From contig OX419757.1 of assembly GCA_948567375.1 (NCBI GenBank), positions 29,231,159 through 29,295,158 on the forward strand: DNA of 64,000 nucleotides. Reading direction: 5' to 3'. Shown here one piece after another: positions 5,431-46,716 of the stretch. Within the stretch, counting starts at the first letter, position 1; each line of letters opens with the position of its first letter. Below the pieces are notes generated by a model. The model had not been told where the DNA came from, ran no database searches, and worked only from the letters and a program-made list of their open reading frames with translations. The position numbers were made by a program, and so were the translations under genes. The stretch is from Lunularia cruciata. Lineage: Eukaryota > Streptophyta > Marchantiopsida > Lunulariales > Lunulariaceae.

Positions 5431-6143
5431 TTAGTTGGCCCGCTCCTTGATGACTTCAATGTCCATCTCAGTTGGATCAGTGGCCTGCAGCTCGTAGTGG
5501 ACGCCATCGAGCTCCCTTCTGAACCTCTCCTTGGAACTTGCGTACATCATCTTTGCCTTCACTCGTGAGACGTCGGGTGACCTGAAAAGGAAAGAAGTTG
5601 GTCATGGAACTGATACGGAAACGTAACTGCAACTTACTTCAGAAGAAGGCTCATATCAAGATGCACTAGTCCGCAGAGAAAGGATCCCGAAATCTTGGGA
5701 CAGGCATACCAGGCAATGAAGAAAATCTTGCTCTTCTGGCAGTTGTCCTCGGTGGTGAAATCGAAGTCATACACTCCGTATCTGCAGTCCTTCTCTGGGA
5801 GGCAGGCAGCAAATGCTTCGTAGCTCTCATCAGGACCTCCTGCCTTCTCGACCACAACCTGTTGAACCTTTTCGTCGATTTTGAAAATAATGTATCGATA
5901 TGTTTTCTTCCTCTTGAGTTCCATAAACTTCAGTTTGCACTCATCACTAACAGCCATTCCCGACGCGGCGTTCGCCTGAATGACGGCCAAATGACGATCA
6001 GCTCCAAGGCCACTCTCCCATCCAAGGCGCTCAAGTCATTGTAGCAACTCGCTATAAAACGCACGCGCCATAACGCAGCAACAACAACGCTAATATAGAC
6101 GACATCGAACAAAATCAAGATCGAGGCTGCCGACACTTACCAT
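5431..6143 (-). CDS. ADF: Actin-depolymerising factor (ADF/cofilin), 3 coding exons
   Basis: This gene encodes a cytoplasmic ADF/cofilin that binds G- and F-actin and speeds filament severing and turnover. Coding exons on minus are 6141-6143 (only the ATG), 5710-5975 and 5431-5581. Intron 1 runs 6140-5976 (GTAAGT...TTCAG) and intron 2 runs 5709-5582 (GTATGC...TTTTCAG). The spliced CDS is 420 nt, 139 aa, the usual plant ADF length. Family marks, seen directly: the N-terminus [10 protein letters not shown] with the Ser-6 region, [24 protein letters not shown] across intron 2, the actin-binding helix [17 protein letters not shown], and [11 protein letters not shown] near the C-terminus, ending in ERAN. 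The intron right after the start codon is the classic layout of plant ADF genes. No frame damage is seen, so it is probably functional. I am very sure of the family; the isoform is unknown. Confidence 0.96.
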
Positions 6144-13923: not shown

Positions 13924-15001
13924 TTAATGCGTTTTAGGTTTGTCAATTTTCACGAAGGGTAGCCAACCCCCCACATATCGCAGTTCAGGATTCCACTCTA
14001 GCTGTCGTGCTCGGCAAAACTGTAAAAACGTGTTACCAAAGTAGGCACTAAACCCAAAAAACACGTGCCACCAGGCATGGCCTTGCGGATTCACTGGTAA
14101 AGATGATATTCGGCTACATAGATGCCGATCCACCAGCCAGCAGATCCCTCCCAAAGTGATCGAGATAACATACATGTGACCCAATCGCCTTGCAGGAACC
14201 TCTGTTGTATAAATGTAGTACTTGTACATTCGAGGCAGGCAAAGCAAACACAAAAAAATAAAATGCAACTGATACACTAAAACAAAATGGAGCAGGGCGT
14301 GACATATGGCATAGGCAGAGCCATATATGAAGAGGAAGGTAGGCATGGTGCTTCTGTAGTGCCAGTCAGGAGAGTAAAGCACATAGATATACAGCAGCAT
14401 GAGCCACACCATCGGGGTTTCATCACTCTGTTGTTGACTGCATGAGCAAAAAAGAAGTAGAAAATAAGGTAAGTTGACAACAAAGCAAACATCTTAAGTG
14501 ATCCATTGCTAGCTGAACCGGAAGTGAAACTCCTGAAAGAGCATAAGAAACCTTCATGCATGAGATGCAAAACCTTCATAAAGCTACTAAAGCTGCACAC
14601 TATCGTCTTCACATCCTGAAGAGAAACTTCTCAGACTGGATGGCATGATATCAGAATACTAATCACGCCAGCCGTGCCTGCAAAATGCTGAACTCAGCGA
14701 TCGCACATACTAGAATACAACATGCGGCAAACGAGAATCAACGCCCATGTGAAACTTACCCATATTTCAAAGAGGCATGAAAGAGGATGCTCCCGATGCC
14801 AATTACAACGCTCGACAGGTGAAGAACACTAAATCTCTTTTCGAACCTTTGACCTATTGTGCTACAAAGACCAATCACAGCAAGTAGTATCATGGGAACA
14901 TTAGAGATAGTGTTGAAGAACTCTCCCACATAGGGAGAAAGTTCGTAGTTCTTTTCACACCACTCTGTGCTGGCTGTGACTGGCCCCCAGTAGCCAGCCA
15001 T
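13924..15001 (-). CDS. ACER: Alkaline ceramidase (ACER/YPC family), 2 coding exons
   Basis: This gene encodes an alkaline ceramidase, a multipass ER/Golgi membrane hydrolase that splits (phyto)ceramide into a sphingoid base and a fatty acid. Exon 1 is 15001-14760, the intron is 14759-14438 (GTAAGT...TGCAG), and exon 2 is 14437-13924. The spliced CDS is 756 nt, 251 aa, close to plant relatives of about 255 aa. The start is the ATG reading MAGYWGPVT, which matches the family N-terminus. Visible family marks: WGPVT and WCEKNY, EFFNTISNVP, the zinc-ligand His in ILFHAS, QQQSDETPMVW directly after the splice, LYSPDWHYRSTMPTFLF, CLPRMYKYYI, and PVNPQGHAWWH, whose two His complete the zinc site known from ACER3 structures. 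Several hydrophobic spans fit the seven-helix fold. It ends in IDKPKTH. The frame is intact and it is probably functional. Confidence 0.96.
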
Positions 15002-27884: not shown

Positions 27885-28152
27885 GATTGATGAGATAGAG
27901 GTACTCCAATGGCGATATATTGATTCATGAGATAGAGATACTCCAATGGTATCAACCGGGAGTGCACTAGTGAATTGTGTGATAGAGGTCCTTCAATGAT
28001 ATGTTTGGTAAGTGAAAAAGGAGCTAAGACATGCTAGGCAGTCCTATTATTGTTGTTCAAAGTGAATTGTGTGATAGAGGTCCTTCAATGATATGTTTGG
28101 TAAGTGAACAAGGAGGTAAGACATGCTAGGCAGTCCTATTATTGTTGTTCAT
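27885..28152. repeat. Two neighbouring tandem repeats (37-bp and 92-bp units)
   Basis: First, TATTGATTGATGAGATAGAG and a second diverged copy follow at about a 37-bp spacing (27885-27958). Then a 92-bp unit starting AGTGAATTGTGTGATAGAGG occurs at 27969 and again at 28061, differing by only two or three bases. The second array looks recent. Confidence 0.85.
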
Positions 28153-33345: not shown

Positions 33346-33812
33346 TGTCATGCCATTTGTAGTATCACGTCATTTGTAGCATCATACCTAGATTGTTGGG
33401 ACTTTGGAATAGTAATGTTGGTAGTTAGAGGTATTTTGGTAGTTCCTCATAGACTACTTGTTGATGGTTAGATTTCTTGTTTGGGGTATTGACTACATGG
33501 TGGGATCTACCATCACTTTCACCACTCGCACCATTGAGTGTGCCATCAATGGGACTGTAAGGGTTGGAGATCCAGGTTGAAATCAGACTTATACCCTAGA
33601 AGTGCAACTCGAGAGAGCTCATGTCTTCGATGTTGAGCCTTCAAGTTCCTGGGTAGAGTGGATAGAAAGCCAACAAGCGTCACTTGGAGTCTCTTAGCTA
33701 GAGTTGATTTGGCTTGATTATAATCAATGCCCAATTGTTGGCAGATTTTTGAGTGACAAATCAAGTGTTGATCTGATTGAGTGTGATTTGAGTTGTGAAA
33801 TAATTGATTACA
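33346..33812 (+). repeat. 5' LTR of the gypsy element (internally deleted)
   Basis: It begins TGTCATGCCATTTGTAG, identical to the 3' LTR start, and matches it through ACTACTTGTT, TTTCTTGTTTGG, CTACATGGTGGG, then CATCAATGGGAC, GGTTGGAGAT, AAGCCAAC, GTCTCTTAGCTAGAG and AATTGTTGGCAGAT. The match ends at TTGATTACA, giving TG...CA ends. Relative to the 3' LTR it lacks about 400 bp between the ACCATT block (near 33530) and the CATCAATGGG block (33544), including all heat-shock elements and both TATA-like boxes. Confidence 0.85.
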
Positions 33813-36130: not shown

Positions 36131-36660
36131 ATTGTGAGCTGGATTGTCTCTCACTCAAGACAAACCTCTGATGACTATTATGGTAGCACACCATGGACTA
36201 CGAAGGCAAAGAACCCCAACTCCATCATACTCCTCCAAGGCTAACACTCCAAGACTCAAGACATTATTCATTAGAGAACTCAATGAGAGAGAGATAGTTG
36301 CAAATGAAAGGATGATGAGTACCTCCTCACCCTTAGTTTATATACTTATGAAATAATCACATACCAAAGTTACTAATTATTGGAGTAACTTAAGTTACTA
36401 GACTCAAAGTCAAATAAAGTCAAAAATTCTAAAGGGATATCCATCTTCATGAGAATATTCTCCTAAGCATATGGTATTATCTTGACCTAACCACTAAGTC
36501 AAGGATTCTTCACATGGGCTATCCTTGGACTATAAAAGAATCTGAAACAAAAGGCTAATGTTCTTTGGTTTGGTCATATCTCTCAAGTACTTGTAATACC
36601 AAACTAAATATCACAATACCACACACATGTACAAAAAAGTGTTATAGTACTTGCACTTAC
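36130..36660 (+). mobile_element. Insertion 1 within the gypsy element (solo-LTR-like or non-autonomous)
   Basis: This block matches 42215-42960 at high similarity and interrupts the gypsy polyprotein after the gag tail. Shared parts: CTCACTCAAGA...AACCTCTGATG, AACCCCAACTCCATCATACT, GAACTCAATGAGAGAGAGAT, AAGTTACTAATTATTGGAGT, GAGAATATTCTCCTAAGCAT, CACTAAGTCAAGGATTC, a TATA box in CCTTGGACTATAAAA, then CTCAAGTACTTGTAATACC and GTGTTATAGT. The TATA box and the lack of a long gene suggest an LTR or a short LTR-like element. Both copies keep a 66-70-codon open stretch from the left end in the same frame. Ends and target duplications could not be fixed; CAATAT occurs on both sides of this copy. Confidence 0.6.
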
Positions 36661-36664
36661 TTTC

Positions 36665-37860
36665 AATATACCCATACCTAATTGGATTGAGCAGTTGGAG
36701 CAGAGATTGGCTAGCATGGCCGTAGCTCAAAGGAGATCAGATTTGGGTGTTGAGACTTCCACCTCATATGTTGGTGATAGAGATATCTTGGACTTCATGT
36801 GTGGAGTAGCATAGGTAGATGCCTCTACCATAGTGACTAGGAGTGAAATATGGGCTCCAGAGCCTAGAGGAGCATTAGTGGAGTTGGACCCACAAAGAAG
36901 AGAGGCTAGTAGATAGGTCAGACTTCCCTAGTCTTTTACACTCTCTAAGGCACTTTAGACAACATCCATGGCTCATAGATGTCCTAATCTAGGTATCGTA
37001 GGTGGTGATGGGATGCATGATACACTACTTACTAGTCAACCTCCTACTACTACACCAATTGAGTCTAGCTCAATGTTGGGGGTGGCTCAATTGATTATGC
37101 ACTTTCTATTATTCTCAACAAGTGACATGTGTACATTGGAAGTTGACCAACCCTAGTGTTCTAGTTGGCTACCACGCTTTATGAGAGTAGGAATGATGTG
37201 GTTCCTGCTTCTAGAACAGATGTGGTTGATAGTGGAGTTGACTTGGTTGAGGAGCATGGGATCTGCTCAATGACTAGTGGTTTATGACAAGCAATAACAA
37301 CTAGATTGGAAGACTTACCAACTAGACTGTCCTTTGAGCACGCACAGTTTACACATGGAGTTGTCTTATTGGATAACCAGAGAAGAATTTTTTTTTTTTG
37401 GTGAGACCTTCAAGGAAGGTCTATATACCACAGAGGGTCTTACTAGACTTTGGTACATAGCCTCTTATGTTGAGGAAGGCTGCAGTTGTTGGTCTAGAAT
37501 TACAAAATATTGATGTGGAGAGGTGTCCATTTCAGATCAAGACATTTCTAAAGGGTGGTTCTACATAGTATATCATATATGAAGAGCTTGTTATTTAGAT
37601 TCAGCTTGGTTATCCGATTGATAGCTCTATGGTGAGCTCAGGCCATTCCGACAATAGTTGAGTCATATGATGTGCTAGTTGGGAGAGCAATATTATATCC
37701 CATGGGTTTTAGTATTGACTATTGGGAGGAGATAACCTCTTATGGACGAGGTTGGCAGTCAAGTGAGGGATGGGTATGTCACCTACCAATATGCTTTAAT
37801 AGTGGTAGTCTTGGCTCACTACAATTTGGGACCATGGCGGCATCAATTTCAACTTTTAGT
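36665..37860 (+). pseudogene. pro: Gag-pol linker and aspartic protease pseudogene
   Basis: 36665-37160 is a linker with LEQRLASMAVAQRRSD, a Pro/Thr/Ser-rich part and many basic residues. The protease follows: RPSRKVYI, then LLDFGT-stop-PLMLRKAAV at about 37447-37480, where retroviral-type aspartic proteases carry D-S/T-G followed by a hydrophobic stretch. The second residue is Phe (TTT, one C-to-T step from TCT), so the catalytic triad is damaged. Then come DVERCPFQIKTFL, a flap-like GGST, SYDVLVGRAILYPMGFSIDY (with a frameshift before it) and WEE(I)TSY with GWQSS. Protease would cut the polyprotein. A poly-T tract at about 37389-37400 probably caused a frameshift. Confidence 0.75.
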
Positions 37861-38119
37861 GGTTTTATTACTTAGCTTGGTGACTTATTGGAAGGGAACG
37901 CCCATGCAAAGGATACTCCAGTACCAAAGGAGATCACTCAGATTTGGAGTACAAGTGGGGTCGTTCTATCCACCTTGGATGTTCCATTGTGAAGTTTAGA
38001 GGAGGCATTGCAACAACATGCGGATCAGTTGGTGCAACAAGCTTGGAGTGGAACCTTTGTACCACCAAGCGACCAATGTGAGGATGAGCTTCCAAAGTTG
38101 ATTACCTTGACACCTTTGG

Positions 38120-39110
38120 ATACCACACTCATTTTTGGCAGTATCCAATAGAGAGAGTATGTCTATTGGAGTTGTTTGGTGGGATTAGCACAAGACTAGT
38201 TGTAGTATTACATGCGGGTAGATGAGTACAGAGGTAATCATATATTAAAAAAAGATGAGATTGCTAGGTGAGTCTCTCTACATCATGTGACACACTTGGT
38301 CTATTGATATCTTGAGTTATTACTGATGTAAAAAGCCAAGGATTACTAGAAGACCCTACTAGTAGATATTTCCTTGTTGGAGGCGCAAGATCTAGAGAGA
38401 GATGGTTCCATTCATTTGGTGATTTCTATATGGCCATGTTAGAGATATACCCATGGTGGCTGAGGTTTGGGTCTTTAGGATCCCCATTGTGGTGTGTTTT
38501 GGGAGATGTTACATATACTACAACATCACCATGTTCATCAATCCGTTTCTCCAACCTGCATTTTGGAGAACATCTCTTTGATGAGTGATTCTTGCACCTA
38601 GATGGTGCTAATTACACATCAGGTCTATTCTAAGATGGGACCTATTGTGTTGTTGGATGCAGCTAGAGTGGGATCATGTGCTCATCATCTTTGTCTTTGG
38701 TGGACAAACCTCTTATCCAAAGAGATTTTATAGTGTTCTTATGATGGGATTCAACGACTAGATTACCTCACTATTGATGATATCTTGGATGTTGGATGTT
38801 AGTCTTAGACATTAATAGTGGCTGATAGGTCACCTATGGCAATGGCAAACCTAGTTGGATAGCTTTGAGGTGCTCTTCTCACACTTATGAGTTTCCTAGG
38901 CTTGCATGCTTTTTGAGAAGGTTGACGTAGACTTCTTTGGGACTCACAATTACAGCAATTGGTGGAGCCCAACACCAATAAGAGAGAGCGTACAATGGGA
39001 TTTTGCACCGGTATTATTGTTGTTCCAATAGTGTTAGAGGCATCCAATGTTGGGTCAAGCTATGGACCTAAATTTTTTGACCTGGATTGTGAGCGTTGGC
39101 TTGGTAGAGT
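38120..39110 (+). pseudogene. C5-cytosine DNA methyltransferase domain (Dnmt3/DRM-like) inside the gypsy polyprotein
   Basis: Cytosine-5 methyltransferases move a methyl group from S-adenosylmethionine to DNA. The ordered motifs are visible in broken frames. Motif I, the AdoMet-binding loop, is VCLLELFGGISTRLVVVLHAG-like at 38157-38220. A DE-AR-HH helix region follows. Motif IV with the catalytic Cys is IWPC-stop-RYTHGG at 38428-38460, where the stop TAG stands in place of the Gln of PCQ. Then GLGL-stop-DP, motif VI CILENIS (38557-38577), and motif VIII LLDAARVGSCAHHLCLWWTN (38650-38709), which resembles the DAKxVSxAHRxRxFWxN of Dnmt3. Next LTLMSF and DSQLQQLVEPN, then ERERTMGF (38984-39007), like the EMERxFGFP of Dnmt3, and a C-terminal LGQ-like segment near 39050. 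All six key motifs are in the right order with usual spacing, so the identification does not rest on one motif. It lies between protease and RT. The copy is inactive. Confidence 0.85.
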
Positions 39111-39419
39111 AATGTAGGATGTGCTTGATAGACATCACCACTAGGGCACTTGTAAGCTCTATGCCTATCAAGACAATTTAGGCACATGCTGGAGGTGATG
39201 GACCAAGTGGACAGGATATTCTCAAGACATAGCCAATGGCTACTAGGGAGAGTGGTCTACTTGGATTACACTCTTGGTCTACTTTACTTGGATTACACTC
39301 TTGGTCTACTTGGGATGCAACTAGAGGACGTATGGAGCTTGCAACCAGAGTGGAGTGAGTTTTTCACACGAAGGTTGGGACCTCTAGTGGTTGGAGGCAT
39401 GACACTAATACTCCCAAGG

Positions 39420-40440
39420 GCTTAATGTAGTAGCCAGTTAGTATATATTCTACTCATATATCAGTTATAGACAATACTTGGGAGCCAGATCTGGGACCCA
39501 AGCTTACAAGAGAGGAAAAATAAAGAGTTTGGAGGTTCTTGAGGAGCTACAAGAGTTATTTTGCTTTCAATATGAAGAATTTTGGTGCTCTAAAGGGACT
39601 TGGTATTCAAATTGAGCTGTCTAGCAATATACTAGTTTTATAACATCCCTATCAATATAGTGACATGGAGAGAGCATTGATTTAGAGCATTGATTTAGAG
39701 CCGGAGTAGAGACCTTTTTTAAGCTAGTTTGGTGGAGATTTAACACGGAGAGTATGCATCAACTATAGTGATGCTAGCCAAGAAAGATATGCATGGCAAC
39801 TCACAAATAGGCAAATGTGTGGAGATTACCATCCTATTAACCAATAGACTATGGCTTATTGGTATGCCATGCTTACACTGGAGGAGATCTTTGATGCAAT
39901 TGGGCATGCAAAGGTCTTCAATACTTTGGATTTTCAAGCAAGATATCATCAATTGTTGATCAAGGAGGAGGATAAGTCCAAAATAACATTTTGGGCTATT
40001 GATCCTCACAATAAGGTGTGTTATATCAATGGAGGTTCTTACCATTTGGGTTAAAGAACATTCTTGTTGAGTTCCAAATCCTGATCATGGACAAGATCTT
40101 AGTTAGAATGGATTTTGCTTGATATTATATCGATGAAATTTCTTTAGCACTATTGTGAGGAGCATGAGAGCCATTTGTTGGAGGTGTTTGAGAGGTTGAG
40201 ATCTCATGGACTCAAATTACATCCTAGGAAGTGTAGTTCTTCCATGAGCAGGTTAAGTATTTGGGACACACTATCTACCCTGGAGGACTTGGTGTTCAAC
40301 AGACCAAGGTGGAAGCTAATGTGTGTATTCCTTGGCCTATAAATGTGAGCAAAATGCAAGCATTCCTTGGGTTGGTGAACTTCTATTGGTGCTATATTAG
40401 AGGATTTAGTGCCATTGCCAAGTGGCAATGTACTAATATA
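39420..40440 (+). pseudogene. Reverse transcriptase pseudogene of the gypsy element
   Basis: Ty3/gypsy RT copies the RNA into DNA. Visible parts, over several frames: LTLEEIFDAIGHAKVFNTLD (39870-39930) followed by FQARYHQLLIKEEDKSK (motif A and its neighbours), ITFWAIDPH, FLPFGLK-like remnants near 40035-40060, and the active-site box YYIDEIS at about 40124-40144, where YIDD is expected. Asp-to-Glu at the second catalytic Asp would abolish activity. Then SHESHLLEVFERLRSHGLKL, a KCS-like finger, LGHTIYPGGLGVQQTKVEA (40260-40320) and KMQAFLGLVNFYWCYIRGFS. These agree with Ty3/gypsy rather than copia. Frameshifts and stops are present. Confidence 0.88.
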
Positions 40441-40935
40441 GCACCTTGACAAAGCTGACCAACACAAGAGTGGTATTGGGGAGATAAGAAGGAGAGAGCT
40501 TTTGTAAAGCTCAAGGAAAGGTTGACATCTGCTTCTATTTTGAGAAGACCAATTAGAGGACAACCATTTCAAGTTCACATTGATTGGAGTATATTGGGGC
40601 TTGGAGTAGTGCTCACCCAACATAATGATGAGGGGAAGGCATTTATGGTGGCCTATGCTAATTGCTCCAAAAATTTAGTGGAGGAAAAGTATAGTTCGTA
40701 TGAGGGAGAGTTTTTGGTAATAGTATGGGTGACAACACATTTTTGATGTTACTTGTTTAGTAACCCCTTTACTATAATCATTGATCATCAACCATTGAAG
40801 TGGTGGATGGAGTTCAGGGAAGCTTGCATGATGGGTTTGATTTTATAAGAGTATGATTTCAAAATTATTCATAGACATGGAGTGGTGAACCGTGATGCAT
40901 ATGGGTTGAGTAAAAACCCATGTCCTAGCCAACAA
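40440..40935 (+). pseudogene. RNase H domain of the gypsy element
   Basis: RNase H removes the RNA strand of the RNA/DNA hybrid. The frame reads SAKLTSASILRRPIRGQP-like (40500-40560), then FQVHIDWSILGLGVVLTQHN with the first catalytic Asp, VAYANCSKN, YSSYEGEFLVIVW with the catalytic Glu, and TIIIDHQPLKWWM with the next Asp (near 40780-40800). The connection to RT is typical of Ty3/gypsy. The end (VVNRDAYGLSKNPC) leads straight into integrase. Few stops occur here (near 40449, 40744 and 40848), so it is the best-kept part of pol. Confidence 0.85.
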
Positions 40936-42200
40936 GATCAGACCAAAGCACGTTGGCATGGTGAGATATATGAGGAGATAGTGCAAAGTTGGCATGCATC
41001 TATATTTCTCTATATATTTTTGGAGGCTTTGGTGGTATCTCTCTTAACTTATACAGGACGAGTTATTGAGATTATAGATCCAAAGAGTGGAGATAGTGGT
41101 ATAGTTCAGCAAGACATTCATGATGATGTCTTAGTGATGGACTATCTTTGCAGTGGTATTGTGGGTGGCACAGTTGGAGCCAAGGAGAGAAACCATGTTC
41201 TTCAGCAAGCTAGATGGTTTAGATTGGAGGGCACACACCTTCTTTGTATATGGGAGGATGGTAGAGTGAGAGTAGTACCACTTCTATCTCAGAGATCACA
41301 ATTGGTACATCATGCTCATGAGGAGGTAGGACATTTTGGAGTAAAGCATATATATAGTTTACTCCAAAGTCATTATTGGTGGTGTGGTATGCAGACCAAT
41401 GTACAGTAGTTTGTTGCCAGATGTGTGGTTTATGACCAAGTTAAAGCATCATTTTATGCTCTCCTATGCGACAATTACACCCATTACCTATCATGGGGTT
41501 GGGTTATTGTTAGAGTTTGGACTTTGTTGGACCTTTACCATTTCTTGTGAGACATCATCCGTATGTTTTGGTGATGGTGGAACACTTCTCCAAGTAGATT
41601 GAGTTGGTGGTACTTCCTACCAAGTCTAGTGGAGGGATGGATTACTCATTTCTTGGATCTAGTTCCTAGTCATTTTGGTGCACCAATTGAGGTTTTGATC
41701 GATCAGGGTACAAAGTTCTTGGGGGAGTTTCAAGTATTTGGTGACAAGGCTTTGATTGATTATCATACTACCTCCCAAGATCACCCTAAGGTAGATGGCT
41801 TAGCAGAGAGAGTGGTTTAGATAGTGAAGAGAAGATTGCAAAAGTATGGTTTGTAGAGAGACAACTTAGGAGATTGGGATCTTTAGCTACCTTGGTTGGC
41901 CATGGGCTATTGCATCAGTCAGTAAGCCTCCTTAGCATCCTTCTCTCCTTACTTTCTATTCTATGGACAAGATCCAAATTTTCCTACAGCCATTTATCAA
42001 GATTTTATTGTCGTTTGGACTTGGATGATCCAAATGTATAGATGAACGCATGTTCTCAATGGGTTGAGATCTTTCAAGAGTGATGCCGATAACCTTTGAG
42101 AACTTGGTGATTGCTTAAGATCAGAATACCTTATGCTATGCTACCATTCAAGGAGTAGATTATAGACCCTTGATCCATTGATTTCATCTAGGTGATTATG
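40936..42200 (+). pseudogene. Integrase pseudogene of the gypsy element
   Basis: Integrase inserts the cDNA copy into the chromosome. The N-terminal zinc module is HHAHEEVGHFGVKHIYSLL, YWWCGMQTNVQ, then FVARCVVYD (41300-41440), where the second Cys of the C-X2-C pair is Tyr (TAT for TGT). The catalytic core appears over two frames: D1 in LDFVGPL (about 41517-41538), VEHFSK near 41578, D2 in IDQGTKFLGEF (about 41699-41730), and E in HPKVDGLAERVV (about 41782-41817). Then WLAMGY and ASLASFSPYF, conserved after the core of plant gypsy elements. A frameshift separates D1 from D2. The C-terminal tail is interrupted by insertion 2 at about 42215, with the PHD finger beyond it. Confidence 0.87.
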
Positions 42201-42214
42201 TATATCTATAACAA

Positions 42215-42960
42215 ACACAATGACAACACTTGATGTTTATGGATCTCCCACTCAAGATGAACCTCTGATGGCTATTATGGTAGTGCACCATGGATTAAGA
42301 AGGCATAGAACCCCAACTCCATCATACTTCTCCAAGGCTAACACTCCAAGACTCAAGGTATTGTTCACTAGAGAACTCAATGAGAGAGAGATAGTTGCAA
42401 ATCAAAGGATGATGAGTACCTCATCACCCCTAGTTTATATATATATATGAAATAGTTACACACCAAAGTTACTAATTATTGGAGTAACTCAAGTTACTAG
42501 GCTAAAAGTCAAAAAGTCTAAAGAATATCCATATTCATGAGAATATTCTCCTAAGCATGTGGTCTTATCTTGACCCAACCACTAAGTCAAGGATTCACAT
42601 GGGCTTTCCTTGGACTATAAAAATAATCCAAAACAAAAAGTCTTGTGGGTCCCTAGAGTTCTCAACTCTTTCCTCAAAGCCAAATACCTAGGAATAATAC
42701 CAATACAATACACTAGAATCCAAAATAGTGATGCTCATCTTTTCCAATTCCTCTAAAGTAAAACCCTCTCTATCTTAGCTATGATTAACTTTAGTTAACA
42801 CTCAGATTTTTGATTGTATAGATGGTCCTATACATGATTAATATAGAACCATCTTTTATCTCTATATAAATAATATCTCTCAAGTACTTGTAATACCAAA
42901 CTAAATATCACAATATCACACACATGCACAAATAAGTGTTATAGTGCTGCACTATCTTGA
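42215..42960 (+). mobile_element. Insertion 2 within the gypsy element (paralogue of insertion 1)
   Basis: This is the second copy of the block at 36130-36660, in the same orientation. It is about 200 bp longer, with an extra segment from GTCTTGTGGGTCCC (42643) to CTCTATATAAATAA (42880). A TATA box (GGACTATAAAA, 42613) is shared; a second TATATAAATA lies at about 42862. It splits the integrase tail from the PHD finger. The left end is near TGATGTTTATGG and the right end near TTATAGTGCTGCA. I could not see a matching target duplication. Confidence 0.6.
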
Positions 42961-43250
42961 GAGTGTGTGAGGTTTTGCCTTCTGGCATCCTCATGTTAGA
43001 AGGACGTGATGGTGTTGTTTGGAAGGATGATGTGTGCAATTGTGCACCATGTCACCTCCCAAAAATTAATGGTACTATGAACCCAAGCTTAGCACTTGTA
43101 CGGGTAGGCTTGTGGTGTATGTTATGCGGCTCTTTTGGTAGAGCTGCTACCATGTTAGTGTGTGATAACTATTTGAGAGGATGGCATATGGTATGTTTGA
43201 CTCTCATGGTGGTTCCTCAAGGATAGTGGTTATGTCCTAGATGTACTTGA
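42957..43250 (+). pseudogene. C-terminal PHD finger of the gypsy polyprotein
   Basis: PHD fingers are C4HC3 zinc modules that often read the methylation state of the histone H3 tail. The frame starts with CEVLPSGILMLEGRDGVVWK and then carries CMLCG (43116-43130), LVCDNY (43158-43172), RGWHMVC (43176-43196), P-Q-G-stop-WLCPRC (43215-43244). Cys/His positions C-X2-C-X11-C-X2-[Y]-X4-H-X2-C-X12-C-X2-C match PHD spacing, including the aromatic W two residues before the last CxxC. The fourth Cys is Tyr (TAT for TGT). A TAG replaces the expected residue before W. It lies where chromoviruses have a chromodomain, so it may target integration to histone marks. Inactive here. Confidence 0.8.
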
Positions 43251-43526
43251 CCTATAGCCAATTCATCCTTTATAAGGTATAGATTGCAGATAAGAGATTA
43301 ACTATGGGGCTTGATAGCACTTGGCCACTTGATCTTTTGGCCACCATAGGATATACTATATACTTGGAGTAGATGGCTATTTGGAGTTAGAGGGACCTAG
43401 CCACCAGCTAGGGAGATGATTGTGGCACTTTAGAGTTCATGTATGACTTATGTATGAGTTGTGCTTCTATAGTGTATGTTGTTGACAACGATGTATGTTG
43501 TGTAGCAATGTACATATGCATGAAAC

Positions 43527-44377
43527 TGTCATGCCATTTGTAGCATTGTACCTAGATTGTTTGGATGTTTGAGAAAGAATGCTAGTAGTTAGGGGTGTTT
43601 TGGCAATTACTCATAGACTACTTGTTAACGGTCATATTTCTTGTTTGGAGTATAACTACATGGTGGGGCTCATTGTCACTTGCACCATTCATATTATCGG
43701 GTATTGTAAAAGACCTAGACCAAGGAGAGAAATAGGAGAATGGAAACTCACGTTGGGAGACTTGAATGAGGGAAAACTCCAAATGCCTAGCATGAGCTTT
43801 GGCTTTGGTATTTATAGGTAGCATACAAAGCCCTTGATCAGCTTCTTAAGAAGCTCCCCTGAGCCGCTTTCTTAGAGTGCAAGCCAAGTTAACTAGGAAG
43901 CTTCTCAAGAAACTTCCTTCTAGAAGCCGCCTACTTGGCATGCAAGCTAAGCTAGTTAGAAGCTTCTAGAAGCTACCTACTTGGGGCACAAGTTAACTAG
44001 TTGAGAAGTTTCCTAGATGCTTCTAGAATATTCTAGGCTAATTTGGCTTATTCTCTACTTTGCTGGCCTTACTAACTACGTCGCTAAACTCCATATTTTT
44101 ATAGGTATGTCATCAATGGGACCAATAGGGTTGGAGATCTAGGTCAAAATCTGAGGTATACCTTGGAAGTGCAACTCTAGAGAGCTCACTTCTCTGATGT
44201 TCAGCCTTCAAGTTCATAGCTAGAGTAGATAAAAAGCCAACGAGCATCACCTAAAGTCTCTTAGCTAGAGTGGATATGGCTTGATTATAATTAGTGCGCA
44301 ATTGTTGGCAGATTGTTGAGTGATAGATCAAGTACTGATCTAATTGAGTGTGATTAGAGTTGTGAAAAAACTGATTA
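43527..44377 (+). repeat. 3' LTR of the gypsy element, full length
   Basis: It begins TGTCATGCCATTTGTAG, as in the 5' LTR, and is 851 bp. The first 170 bp and the last 270 bp match the 5' LTR. The middle (43700-44108) is present only here. It holds repeats with heat-shock elements (43897-44033) and then a TATA-like ATATTTTTATAGG near 44092-44104, suggesting U3 promoter function. The end is TGATTA followed directly by a duplicated flank at about 44374, so the terminal CA appears lost. Confidence 0.85.
43897..44033 (+). promoter_or_regulatory. Heat-shock element cluster in the LTR U3
   Basis: Heat-shock factor binds alternating nGAAn/nTTCn units with 2-nt spacing. The tandemly repeated segment contains a trimer GAA-gc-TTC-ta-GAA at 43959-43971, a trimer TTC-ta-GAA-ta-TTC at 44021-44033, and dyads at 43897-43904 (GAA/TTC), 43909-43916, 43918-43925 and 44005-44012. 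Each repeat also carries a variant of CAAGTTAACTAG or CAAGCTAAGCTAG. A TATA-like box lies about 60 bp downstream of the last unit. The arrangement is like that of heat-activated plant retroelements, but response to heat is an inference. Confidence 0.65.
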
Positions 44378-44480
44378 TTGTGACACTTTAGAGTTCATGT
44401 ATGACTTATGTGTGATTTGTGCTTCTATAATGTATGATGTTGACTGCGATGTATGTTGTGTAGTGATGTATACACACATT

Positions 44481-46716
44481 ACACAATGGAGGCAATGGTA
44501 AAGGGATAGATGTGGTTCCATTAGGAGGAACCTTAGCTCCTAGGAGGCATGTTGGAAGAGGTGGCACCTACATATATGCCCTAGACCCACATAAGGAGTA
44601 TGGAGTGCTAAATGAGGAGCATGGCTTATCGTAGTCTCTTTAGGTGCCTATGCTAAAGAACAAAGTGGTTACATCATAAAAGACTCTAATTGAGATCTCC
44701 TATATCCTATGCGGCATAACCTAATACATAACAAGAAGAGAAAATATCCAATAACAAAAACTAACAATTTGACAACAAGCATGCACAAGAGCAAAACTAA
44801 AGATAGAAAAATTAGGAAAGGATGTAAGGAGGACTTATCTGTCATTGAAGAAGTTTTGTAGTTTTTTAAGCTCCAACAAATATGGTATGCAAGCCCTTTA
44901 GTGCAAGAACTCTCAAGTACAAAAAACATGAACTTTTGATACAAGAACATGTGGTGCAAGAGCCTAAAATACAAGAACCATTTGATACAACATTTTTTTG
45001 TACATAAATCCTTTGATACAAGAACCTTTTGTATAGGAACCTTGATTACAAGAGCCCTATTGTCCTATAACTTGTTCCATAGAGACTGATCTGGCCAAGC
45101 CAAATCCCAAATCCGATTGAACCAAAATATGTAACCAAAATATGTAGATTGAGCCAAAAACCATGTGGAAATTGATCTCGAGAGGAGCAACAAAGTAGGG
45201 TAGGTTGATAGGCTATGCGTAAAACCTGCTATTGGAAACTGTGCTAACTACAGGTTTCCAATCTCAAAGAACCTAGCTCTCTCTACCACTCATATTGCCC
45301 AAGTGTTGAAGAAGACCCCTTTTGAATAATCAGAGTACTGCCAATAGTGTTCAAAATGACAAGAAGATTACTCCGACCACAAAGAAAATGATAACCATAT
45401 GAAGAAGCTTGATCTCACTTGACCATCCAAGTATGGACCTTTGTAGTCAAATGCACTATATAATATTCCCTTTTGCAGCCTTCCATTGAGAATTTACTCT
45501 CCCATAACAAAAAACTCATTGCTCAACACCAATAATCAACTATAGCTAATATGTTAAAGCCTCTATTTGCAAAATAGGAGCTCCTTTATTTTGACATGCT
45601 GGATCACCGTTTACTAGTTACTAGGCTGACAAAGCTTTTAGCCAAAATAGAGACTTCTTTATGGACTCAATTGATCTATCTCTCATTTTGCAAAGCTATC
45701 TCTCTCATAATTTCAACTATCCTCCCAAATCACTTATGGTCAAAATTCCCATAGCTAAAAATCTCTATGCACTAACTTCATCTTGCAATAGTAGCAAATT
45801 CAATAAAGCAACTCCAACACATCAAAATAACAAGTTCAATAAAACAACCATTCCCTAAAATGGAGACTTCTCCATTTCAAATTGCTCCAAAATCTAACAT
45901 TCAAAAAAGAGCTAAAGTGGCTCCAACACATAACAATCAATAGCTAAAGTAGCTCCAACACACAATAATGATAAATAAAAAGAGACTTCTTGATTTCTAC
46001 TTGCTCCTTACATTAGACAATAGCGAGTTCAAAAGGACTTCTGCTTTGCTTGCCAAGATAGTGACTTCCTTAATTCAATGTATTTGCTCATCACTCCCTA
46101 ATTCTTCATAGAAAACGCTCATAGCAACAAAACCCATAGCTTCATTTGGGCTCACTAACATAACTCACCCCATTTAATGTTACAAGGACAAGAGAAACTC
46201 CAAGAGAAACACAAGTAATGAAACACAAGGTTTAATTCCTCAATACTACGATGCCCCAAAGGAGCACTTCAACTTTATTTTATAGTGGAGAAAATCCCTT
46301 CCAATTCAACTACATCCTTAGATTAGAAACATGAATACATGACATGTCTAAAAGCTATACCATTAGATTGGATTCATGGGTTGGTGACATGTCAACATGG
46401 GGGTTTGTGAATTCATGGGTTGTGAATTTCAGTTCTTTAGGCCTCCAAAATTAGCTTTGAGGTTTTTAGTGTGTTTTCAACCTCTGCCCTATTATTGGAA
46501 AATTTTTTTATGACAGCTCTATCTGATCTACTTAGACCATCATGTATAACATCCTAAAAGATATTACAAAACCCATTTCCATCTCCATACAATTTGTCTA
46601 GCTAATGGTAGTAATCCCAATAGCTTGCTGCCATTATTCACTATCTTTGCAACTCACCATCAAAGCTCTGCCATACATCAGAGAGGTATATCAGGGATGA
46701 AGAGATGTGCTTAGCC
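44481..46716. other. Repetitive AT-rich region after the gypsy element
   Basis: No gene is supported. 44880-45060 holds a degenerate repeat with GATACAAGAACCTTT-like and ACAAGAAC units. 45560-46060 has recurring words such as AGAGACTTCTT and CTAAAGTAGCTCCAACACA, probably an old array or retroelement relic. 44490-44640 has an open-looking stretch with Gly/Arg-rich translation that might be internal sequence of another retroelement copy, but I do not recognise it. Confidence 0.4.

Follow-up and report, generated by a model that had tools for sequence, protein, structure and literature searches.

Retrotransposons that carry a DNA cytosine methyltransferase (DNMT) have been described from Symbiodinium and from a gypsy element of the charophyte Klebsormidium nitens, KnitGypsy-Dnmt3, the DNMT of which was reported to be under purifying selection (PMC5890265, available text). 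KnitGypsy-Dnmt3 and the family described here are both of the Ty3/gypsy kind, and both encode a Dnmt3-type DNMT whose motifs are not rearranged. Going by the published description, it differs in having the DNMT within the Pol polyprotein ORF and in having DIRS-like repeats (PMC5890265), whereas the present family has direct LTR pairs of 449–455 bp and a DNMT that ends the Gag-protease frame before a UAG stop codon; readthrough of this stop would join the DNMT to the rest of Pol. Among the named matches of the two protein searches there was no K. nitens sequence. SymbioDIRS-Dnmt3 and SymbioLINE-Dnmt of Symbiodinium also place a DNMT on a retrotransposon, but they belong to other classes and were reported as independent captures, with the SymbioDIRS enzymes methylating CG de novo in yeast (PMC5890265). 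A 2025 survey citing this work lists, in the text available, DNMT3s carried by streptophyte and dinoflagellate retroelements, namely LTR elements (written as Copia) and DIRS elements (PMC12344493).

Host methyltransferases of plants also differ from the present DNMT. Plant DNMT3 genes, for example PpDNMT3b of Physcomitrella, have the same linear Dnmt3 motif order (PMC6453930, available text) but are host genes with a domain make-up of their own, whereas the present DNMT is part of a retroelement polyprotein. The plant DRM methyltransferases are Dnmt3-related de novo enzymes with a rearranged motif order that is absent from the present DNMT. Chromodomain gypsy elements (chromoviruses) carry a domain of the histone-reader type behind the integrase; the present family has a PHD finger instead of the chromodomain, plus the DNMT.

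One paper states that land plants are without DNMT-carrying retroelements, such elements having been described from algae. The available portions of PMC6453930, PMC8616336 and PMC12477816 hold nothing on DNMT retroelements of land plants, and no report of land-plant DNMT gypsy elements was found in the openly accessible literature. Proteins related to those of the element are on record for Marchantia, Calypogeia, Riccia and Sphagnum. An earlier note on this DNA considered it the strongest candidate in the window for an undescribed system; it is not wholly undescribed given the precedent of KnitGypsy-Dnmt3 in the text available (PMC5890265): the family is of a known kind, a retrotransposon-borne DNMT, with a new host range and a new gene order, and its expression strategy is likely to be new as well.

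Anatomy of the element and its methyltransferase block

The window is the whole stretch of 64,000 nucleotides of Lunularia cruciata DNA that was analyzed. Its block at 38.15–39.10 kb was confirmed to be a decayed Dnmt3-type cytosine methyltransferase within a Ty3/gypsy element, as the earlier note had claimed from motifs between protease and reverse transcriptase (RT); homology and the copies in the same genome both support this. The element itself extends beyond the block noted at the time, covering approximately 33.4–44.4 kb and including a PHD finger and two later insertions. Its parts, the coding ones placed mainly by tblastn of relatives' proteins on the window and the LTRs by their pairing, are as follows:

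33365–33811, plus strand: 5′ LTR, pairing with 43529–43690 and 44105–44377 at 79–84% and aligning to the LTR of young copy L047
34947–36134, plus strand: gag, frame 3; residues 1–392 of Marchantia protein P0025, 49% identity
36132–36645, unstranded: insertion of a repeat of about 510 bp, a later event and not the element's LTR; P0025 coding restarts at residue 402 behind it
36686–37147, plus strand: stretch between gag and protease, frame 2; P0025 residues 402–541
37340–37906, plus strand: protease region with approximate limits, in frames 3 and 1; P0025 residues 620–700 at 37392–37628 and 705 onward at 37639
38151–39103, plus strand: decayed Dnmt3-type DNMT domain, frames 3, 1 and 2; protein homology, tblastn and identity to own copies
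39104–39391, plus strand: C-terminal tail of the Gag-protease-DNMT frame; P0025 residues 1177–1268 match 39038–39391
39428–39436, plus strand: what remains of the UAG-CARYYA stop separating DNMT from RT, identified by position and likeness to own copies
39479–40237, plus strand: RT with the sequence immediately preceding it, frame 2; P0086 residues 446–701, P0033 residues 696–830
40021–40953, plus strand: last part of RT, then RNase H, frame 1; RT_RNaseH_2 (E 5.5e-23), RT_RNaseH (E 5.4e-20), tblastn of P0068 and P0070
41113–42217, plus strand: integrase; Integrase_H2C2 in two frames (E 1.5e-7 and 2.2e-11), tblastn of P0068 and P0086
42244–42953, unstranded: second insertion of the same repeat with about 210 bp extra inside; P0086 and P0068 coding restarts at 42951–42954
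42954–43244, plus strand: C-terminus of integrase and PHD finger (PHD at about 43116–43244); P0086 residues 1416–1513, 46% identity
43529–44377, plus strand: 3′ LTR, interrupted at about 43690–44104; pairs with the 5′ LTR and aligns to the LTR of a young copy

Protease, RT, RNase H and integrase follow each other in the Ty3/gypsy order both in the window and in relatives, and direct LTRs are present at both ends (in four of five young copies as well as in the diverged window pair). Protease was called at residues 602–794 of P0025 and as Asp_protease_2 in relative P0045. For the window itself, the matches of RVT_1 to the RT (E 0.0012) and of the PHD family to the PHD finger (E 0.0037) fall below Pfam's cut-off.

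The pair of repeats of about 510 bp (approximately 36132–36657 and 42244–42953) was considered as the LTRs of the element and rejected. Both are taken to be later insertions because relatives' coding continues behind each and because young copy L019 is without the first, which is also absent from a reversed copy in L048. The first is 88–94% like parts of the second, and it is observed that the same repeat lies twice, in the same orientation, in this dead element; these are perhaps solo LTRs of another family. It should also be noted that a stretch of about 110 bp flanks the 3′ LTR on both sides (43415–43526 and 44373–44484, 86% alike), and that the flank behind the LTR of L019 resembles both.

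A frame-by-frame reading of the block bore out the motifs listed in the earlier note, with motif I in frame 3 (38151–38243), motifs IV, VI and VIII and the ERE-MGF motif in frame 1 and the last part of the block in frame 2. The spacing from motif IV to VI (44 residues) and from VI to VIII (40 residues) equals that of the intact relative P0002. The frame-1 reading of 38122–39139 contains 19 stops. A Pfam search of the three plus-strand frames of the block gave no DNA_methylase, NCBIfam gave only dcm (E 0.21) on the decayed frames, and a PDB search with these frames placed an unrelated interferon regulatory factor at the top (E 0.0041) with HaeIII methylase only at E 2.1. The methyltransferase match expected by the earlier note came instead from protein homology. 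With its stops masked as X, the frame-1 translation matched 22 proteins of a large protein database at E ≤ 0.01 among 807 candidates, the best at E 1.8e-72 with 47% identity and the named ones from Sphagnum troendelagicum, Marchantia paleacea, M. polymorpha and Riccia sorocarpa. PF00145 was precomputed for 11 of the 22, and in intact relatives it was found in three of seven proteins in one Pfam scan and five of six in another.

In tblastn, the real window DNA matched the set of 75 relatives described below with E values down to 1.5e-105, while in 20 shuffles of 33–45 kb none of the 75 reached E < 1e-3 (best 0.016), by which chance likeness was rejected. A long-protein search with the decayed frame gave none of 1511 candidates at E ≤ 0.001. 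Query A1 found no relatives among 20 pattern matches in viral contigs, and query A3 against IMG/VR contigs gave 16 partial matches of 58, at 30–49% identity. No Rfam matches and no tRNAs were detected, nor any Pfam family on the minus strand of 34.0–43.9 kb.

The order of motifs I, IV, VI, VIII and X, with the catalytic Cys, is linear. The earlier note had left the order as Dnmt3/DRM; it is that of Dnmt3, because the solved DRM chains match only over the motif I–IV part, at their own C-terminal end. Membership of DRM was accordingly rejected, the rearranged order (VI–X before I–V) not being present. For four element DNMTs from three clades the nearest solved structure was DNMT3A or DNMT3B (P0002, E 6e-12; P0063, E 1.8e-10; P0071, E 1.1e-16; L019, E 1.2e-11), this being a ranking of PDB matches and not a tree, and the tRNA methyltransferases of DNMT2 type were weaker matches. 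Motifs were counted in 66 DNMT domains of at least 230 residues, the shorter ones among the 87 called being left out. The Cys of motif IV is present in 65 of these with a gap in the other one, the Glu of motif VI in 65, and motif IV reads WPCQ in 59, where DNMT3A aligns with PCN. Four domains (in relatives such as P0068 and P0097) have WEC for WPC and keep the catalytic Cys.

Copies in the genome, relatives in other plants and decay

The L. cruciata genome (565,766,749 bp in 74 contigs) was searched with the Marchantia Gag-protease-DNMT protein P0025. At least 36 copies were found (36 scored of 21,978 candidates), all spanning residues 1–1230 at 62% identity. Eight contigs of 60–85 Mb are among those bearing matches. 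The DNMT is present with the WPCQ motif in each of 30 copies fetched (488–502 bits), and in seven of the 30 the frame is open all the way from gag through the DNMT. As P0025 includes the DNMT, the count of 30 of 30 is biased towards it, and therefore a separate search was made with the RT stretch only. This gave at least 150 copies (150 scored of 34,101 candidates), of which 15 have an open frame of 1037 residues without a stop inside the match, and the DNMT lies upstream of RT in 19 of 20 copies chosen by RT alone. A separate insertion confined to the window copy, the reading that would have undone the claim of the earlier note, is ruled out by these counts.

Four of five young copies sampled gave LTR pairs and the fifth gave none. 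Three pairs measure 449, 455 and 449 bp with 8, 8 and 7 mismatches respectively, and the fourth has 3 mismatches and 9 gap positions over 450 columns, so that, gaps aside, the four are 98–99% identical. From the copy numbers and these near-identical LTR pairs, the family is many-copied and recently active. A reversed gag of the same family was observed behind young copy L019 (L048, 225–1901), and L019 therefore seems to have inserted into, or beside, another copy.

Between hosts, L019 and the Marchantia element share 73.9% identity over the DNMT. This is more than for gag (68.0%), protease (58.8%) or the tail (35.2%) and not far below RT (79.2%); it argues that the domain has been maintained by selection from host to host. 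Within the young burst, pN/pS was 0.49 for the DNMT, 0.24 for gag, 0.37 for protease and 0.71 for the tail, calculated on 27 of the 30 copies, three of another length being left out. The DNMT variants shared among these 27 (two synonymous, five nonsynonymous) are too few to speak for selection within the burst, which pN/pS alone would not show.

The wider family comprises at least 75 matches from a longer-protein search, in which the best 8000 candidates by shared words were scored. Matches with a named host come from M. polymorpha, Calypogeia fissa, S. fallax and S. troendelagicum. The element has its closest relatives in liverworts and Sphagnum, and proteins of Marchantia, Calypogeia and Sphagnum were placed in the same clade as the window DNMT. 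By domain calls, the DNMT stands behind Gag or protease in 36 proteins without RT, before RT/RNase H in eight and after RT/RNase H in 11, with 20 having an undetermined DNMT place or no called DNMT. The earlier note asked whether the domain is always between protease and RT. It is so in the copies from this genome that were examined, and proteins of liverworts and Sphagnum fit, but in 11 relatives the DNMT comes after RT/RNase H. The RT tree, built on 18 rows, places the eight before-RT elements together on one side of a branch with support 100/99, two RT proteins with a partial DNMT having been classed by the place of the DNMT piece, and in a DNMT tree of 16 rows the before-RT split was not rejected (p-AU 0.56). 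The DNMT thus occupies a different place in each of two element lineages, through either one capture that moved or two captures. For the lineage with the DNMT after RNase H, the best 60 of 86 PDB matches of P0089 were to integrase and PHD only.

A PHD finger was called in 12 of the 75 relatives, and in 11 of these an integrase was called ahead of it. Among the best solved PHD matches of P0089 and of Marchantia P0067 are KDM5, CHD4, PHF12, PHF21A, ATXR5, UHRF1 and AIRE. Several of these proteins, like the ADD domain of DNMT3, read histone H3 unmodified at K4. It could be conjectured by analogy that the PHD finger of the element does likewise.

The window copy is dead and has been worn mainly by C-to-T change at CG and CHG. 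Its DNMT is 80.1–81.1% identical in nucleotides to all 30 fetched copies, and it groups with L019 in a quick tree (SH-aLRT 99). Residues of five relatives could be aligned to 72 of its in-frame stops. At 41 of these the residue is Q, R or W, compared with 14.5% of 2241 other aligned positions, and within the DNMT block Q or R faces 14 of 18 in-frame stops. C>T or G>A make up 663 of the 1064 differences between the window and L019, and a C of L019 has become T in the window at 81 of 173 CG, 109 of 311 CHG and 88 of 754 CHH sites, the directions being approximate since L019 stands in for the ancestor. The CpG observed/expected ratio of the flanks is 0.63 and 0.70, against 0.14–0.23 for the parts that belong to the element itself; the two later insertions have 0.06 and 0.00. 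Judged from base changes, the pattern at CG and CHG has the signature of methylated-cytosine decay in a plant, and decay this heavy shows that the host silences such copies anyway.

The stop codon before RT and the possible role of the methyltransferase

In all 30 fetched copies the Gag-protease-DNMT frame ends 114 codons past the DNMT at a UAG followed by CARYYA, mostly CAG-CCA, and in five of five copies examined the RT lies in the same frame beyond it. Among the 19 RT-picked copies with a DNMT, 15 have UAG-CARYYA, one has CAG-CCT and three have another stop next. On the plus strand of the window, the CARYYA context follows 6 of 3656 stop triplets. According to the text available (PMC4132726), the CARYYA context has an important part in Tobacco Mosaic Virus readthrough, and it promotes readthrough in other instances too. 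Many relatives' proteins also stop about 80–150 residues behind the DNMT, as would be expected if the stop were old, although some of these ends may be contig ends.

The gene order of the young copies is LTR, Gag-protease-DNMT, UAG, RT and the rest of Pol in frame, LTR. Because the UAG with its leaky context comes only after the DNMT, most DNMT would be made in Gag amounts, unlike Pol. It is proposed, with a probability of about 0.7, that this order together with a leaky UAG supplies DNMT in Gag amounts, which methylates the cDNA or the new insertion of the element itself. Most ribosomes would halt at the UAG, so that DNMT is packed into the particle, and a few would read through to give the Pol fusion. 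In the particle, the DNMT may then methylate cytosines of the new cDNA, or it may act on the fresh insertion, and the premethylated copy would enter the genome looking like quiet host DNA. The PHD finger of the integrase may direct new copies towards chromatin in which histone H3 is unmodified. The window copy would later have been methylated and then eroded by methylated-cytosine decay at CG and CHG. This job of the DNMT is inferred. The UAG-CARYYA arrangement gives a definite expectation of how much DNMT a particle should contain.

A more specific version can be put forward only tentatively, namely that this is a self-marking land-plant lineage in which a Dnmt3 made in capsid amounts writes CG methylation on the element's own cDNA and a PHD finger reading unmodified H3 guides it to quiet chromatin. 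If so, writer and reader of one silencing pathway would be united in one element, which would hide from host silencing and not fight it. Since Marchantia is a laboratory plant, the relatives found there allow a direct test of why a transposon should carry an enzyme of the very type by which it is silenced.

That a methyltransferase fragment landed by chance in one copy of the element, or that the likeness arose from noise, is scarcely credible: the window's own frames are without a sound Pfam or PDB match, as such a reading would have it, but the masked-frame homology, the shuffles, the recurrence of the DNMT in nearly all same-genome copies and the Marchantia proteins holding it at the same place all speak against it. 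Whether the domain still methylates DNA is a more serious matter. It might have become an RNA methyltransferase or a structural, nucleic-acid-binding part of the particle, and the prevalence of WPCQ where DNMT3A has PCN would suit such a change, as would the K. nitens gypsy DNMT having given no methylation of yeast DNA, a result which its authors call inconclusive (PMC5890265, available text). It is nevertheless thought unlikely in view of the near-invariant catalytic Cys and motif VI Glu and of DNMT3A/B, with DNMT2-type enzymes weaker, as the nearest solved structures.

An enzyme made in the amounts of Gag by a family of this copy number might also act in trans, methylating host genes, rival elements or the loci of silencing factors and not its own cDNA. 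The fusion behind Gag-protease points to the particle, and action in trans is regarded as quite improbable. Methylation of the element's own cDNA or new insertion is the preferred reading.

Elsewhere in the window, on the minus strand, an exon of a cofilin/ADF actin-binding protein (5637–6035; PF00241, E 3e-22) and an open frame matching Ceramidase (13927–14493; PF05875, E 9.5e-29) were detected, and a 91-bp tandem duplication, 98% alike, lies at 27969–28151.
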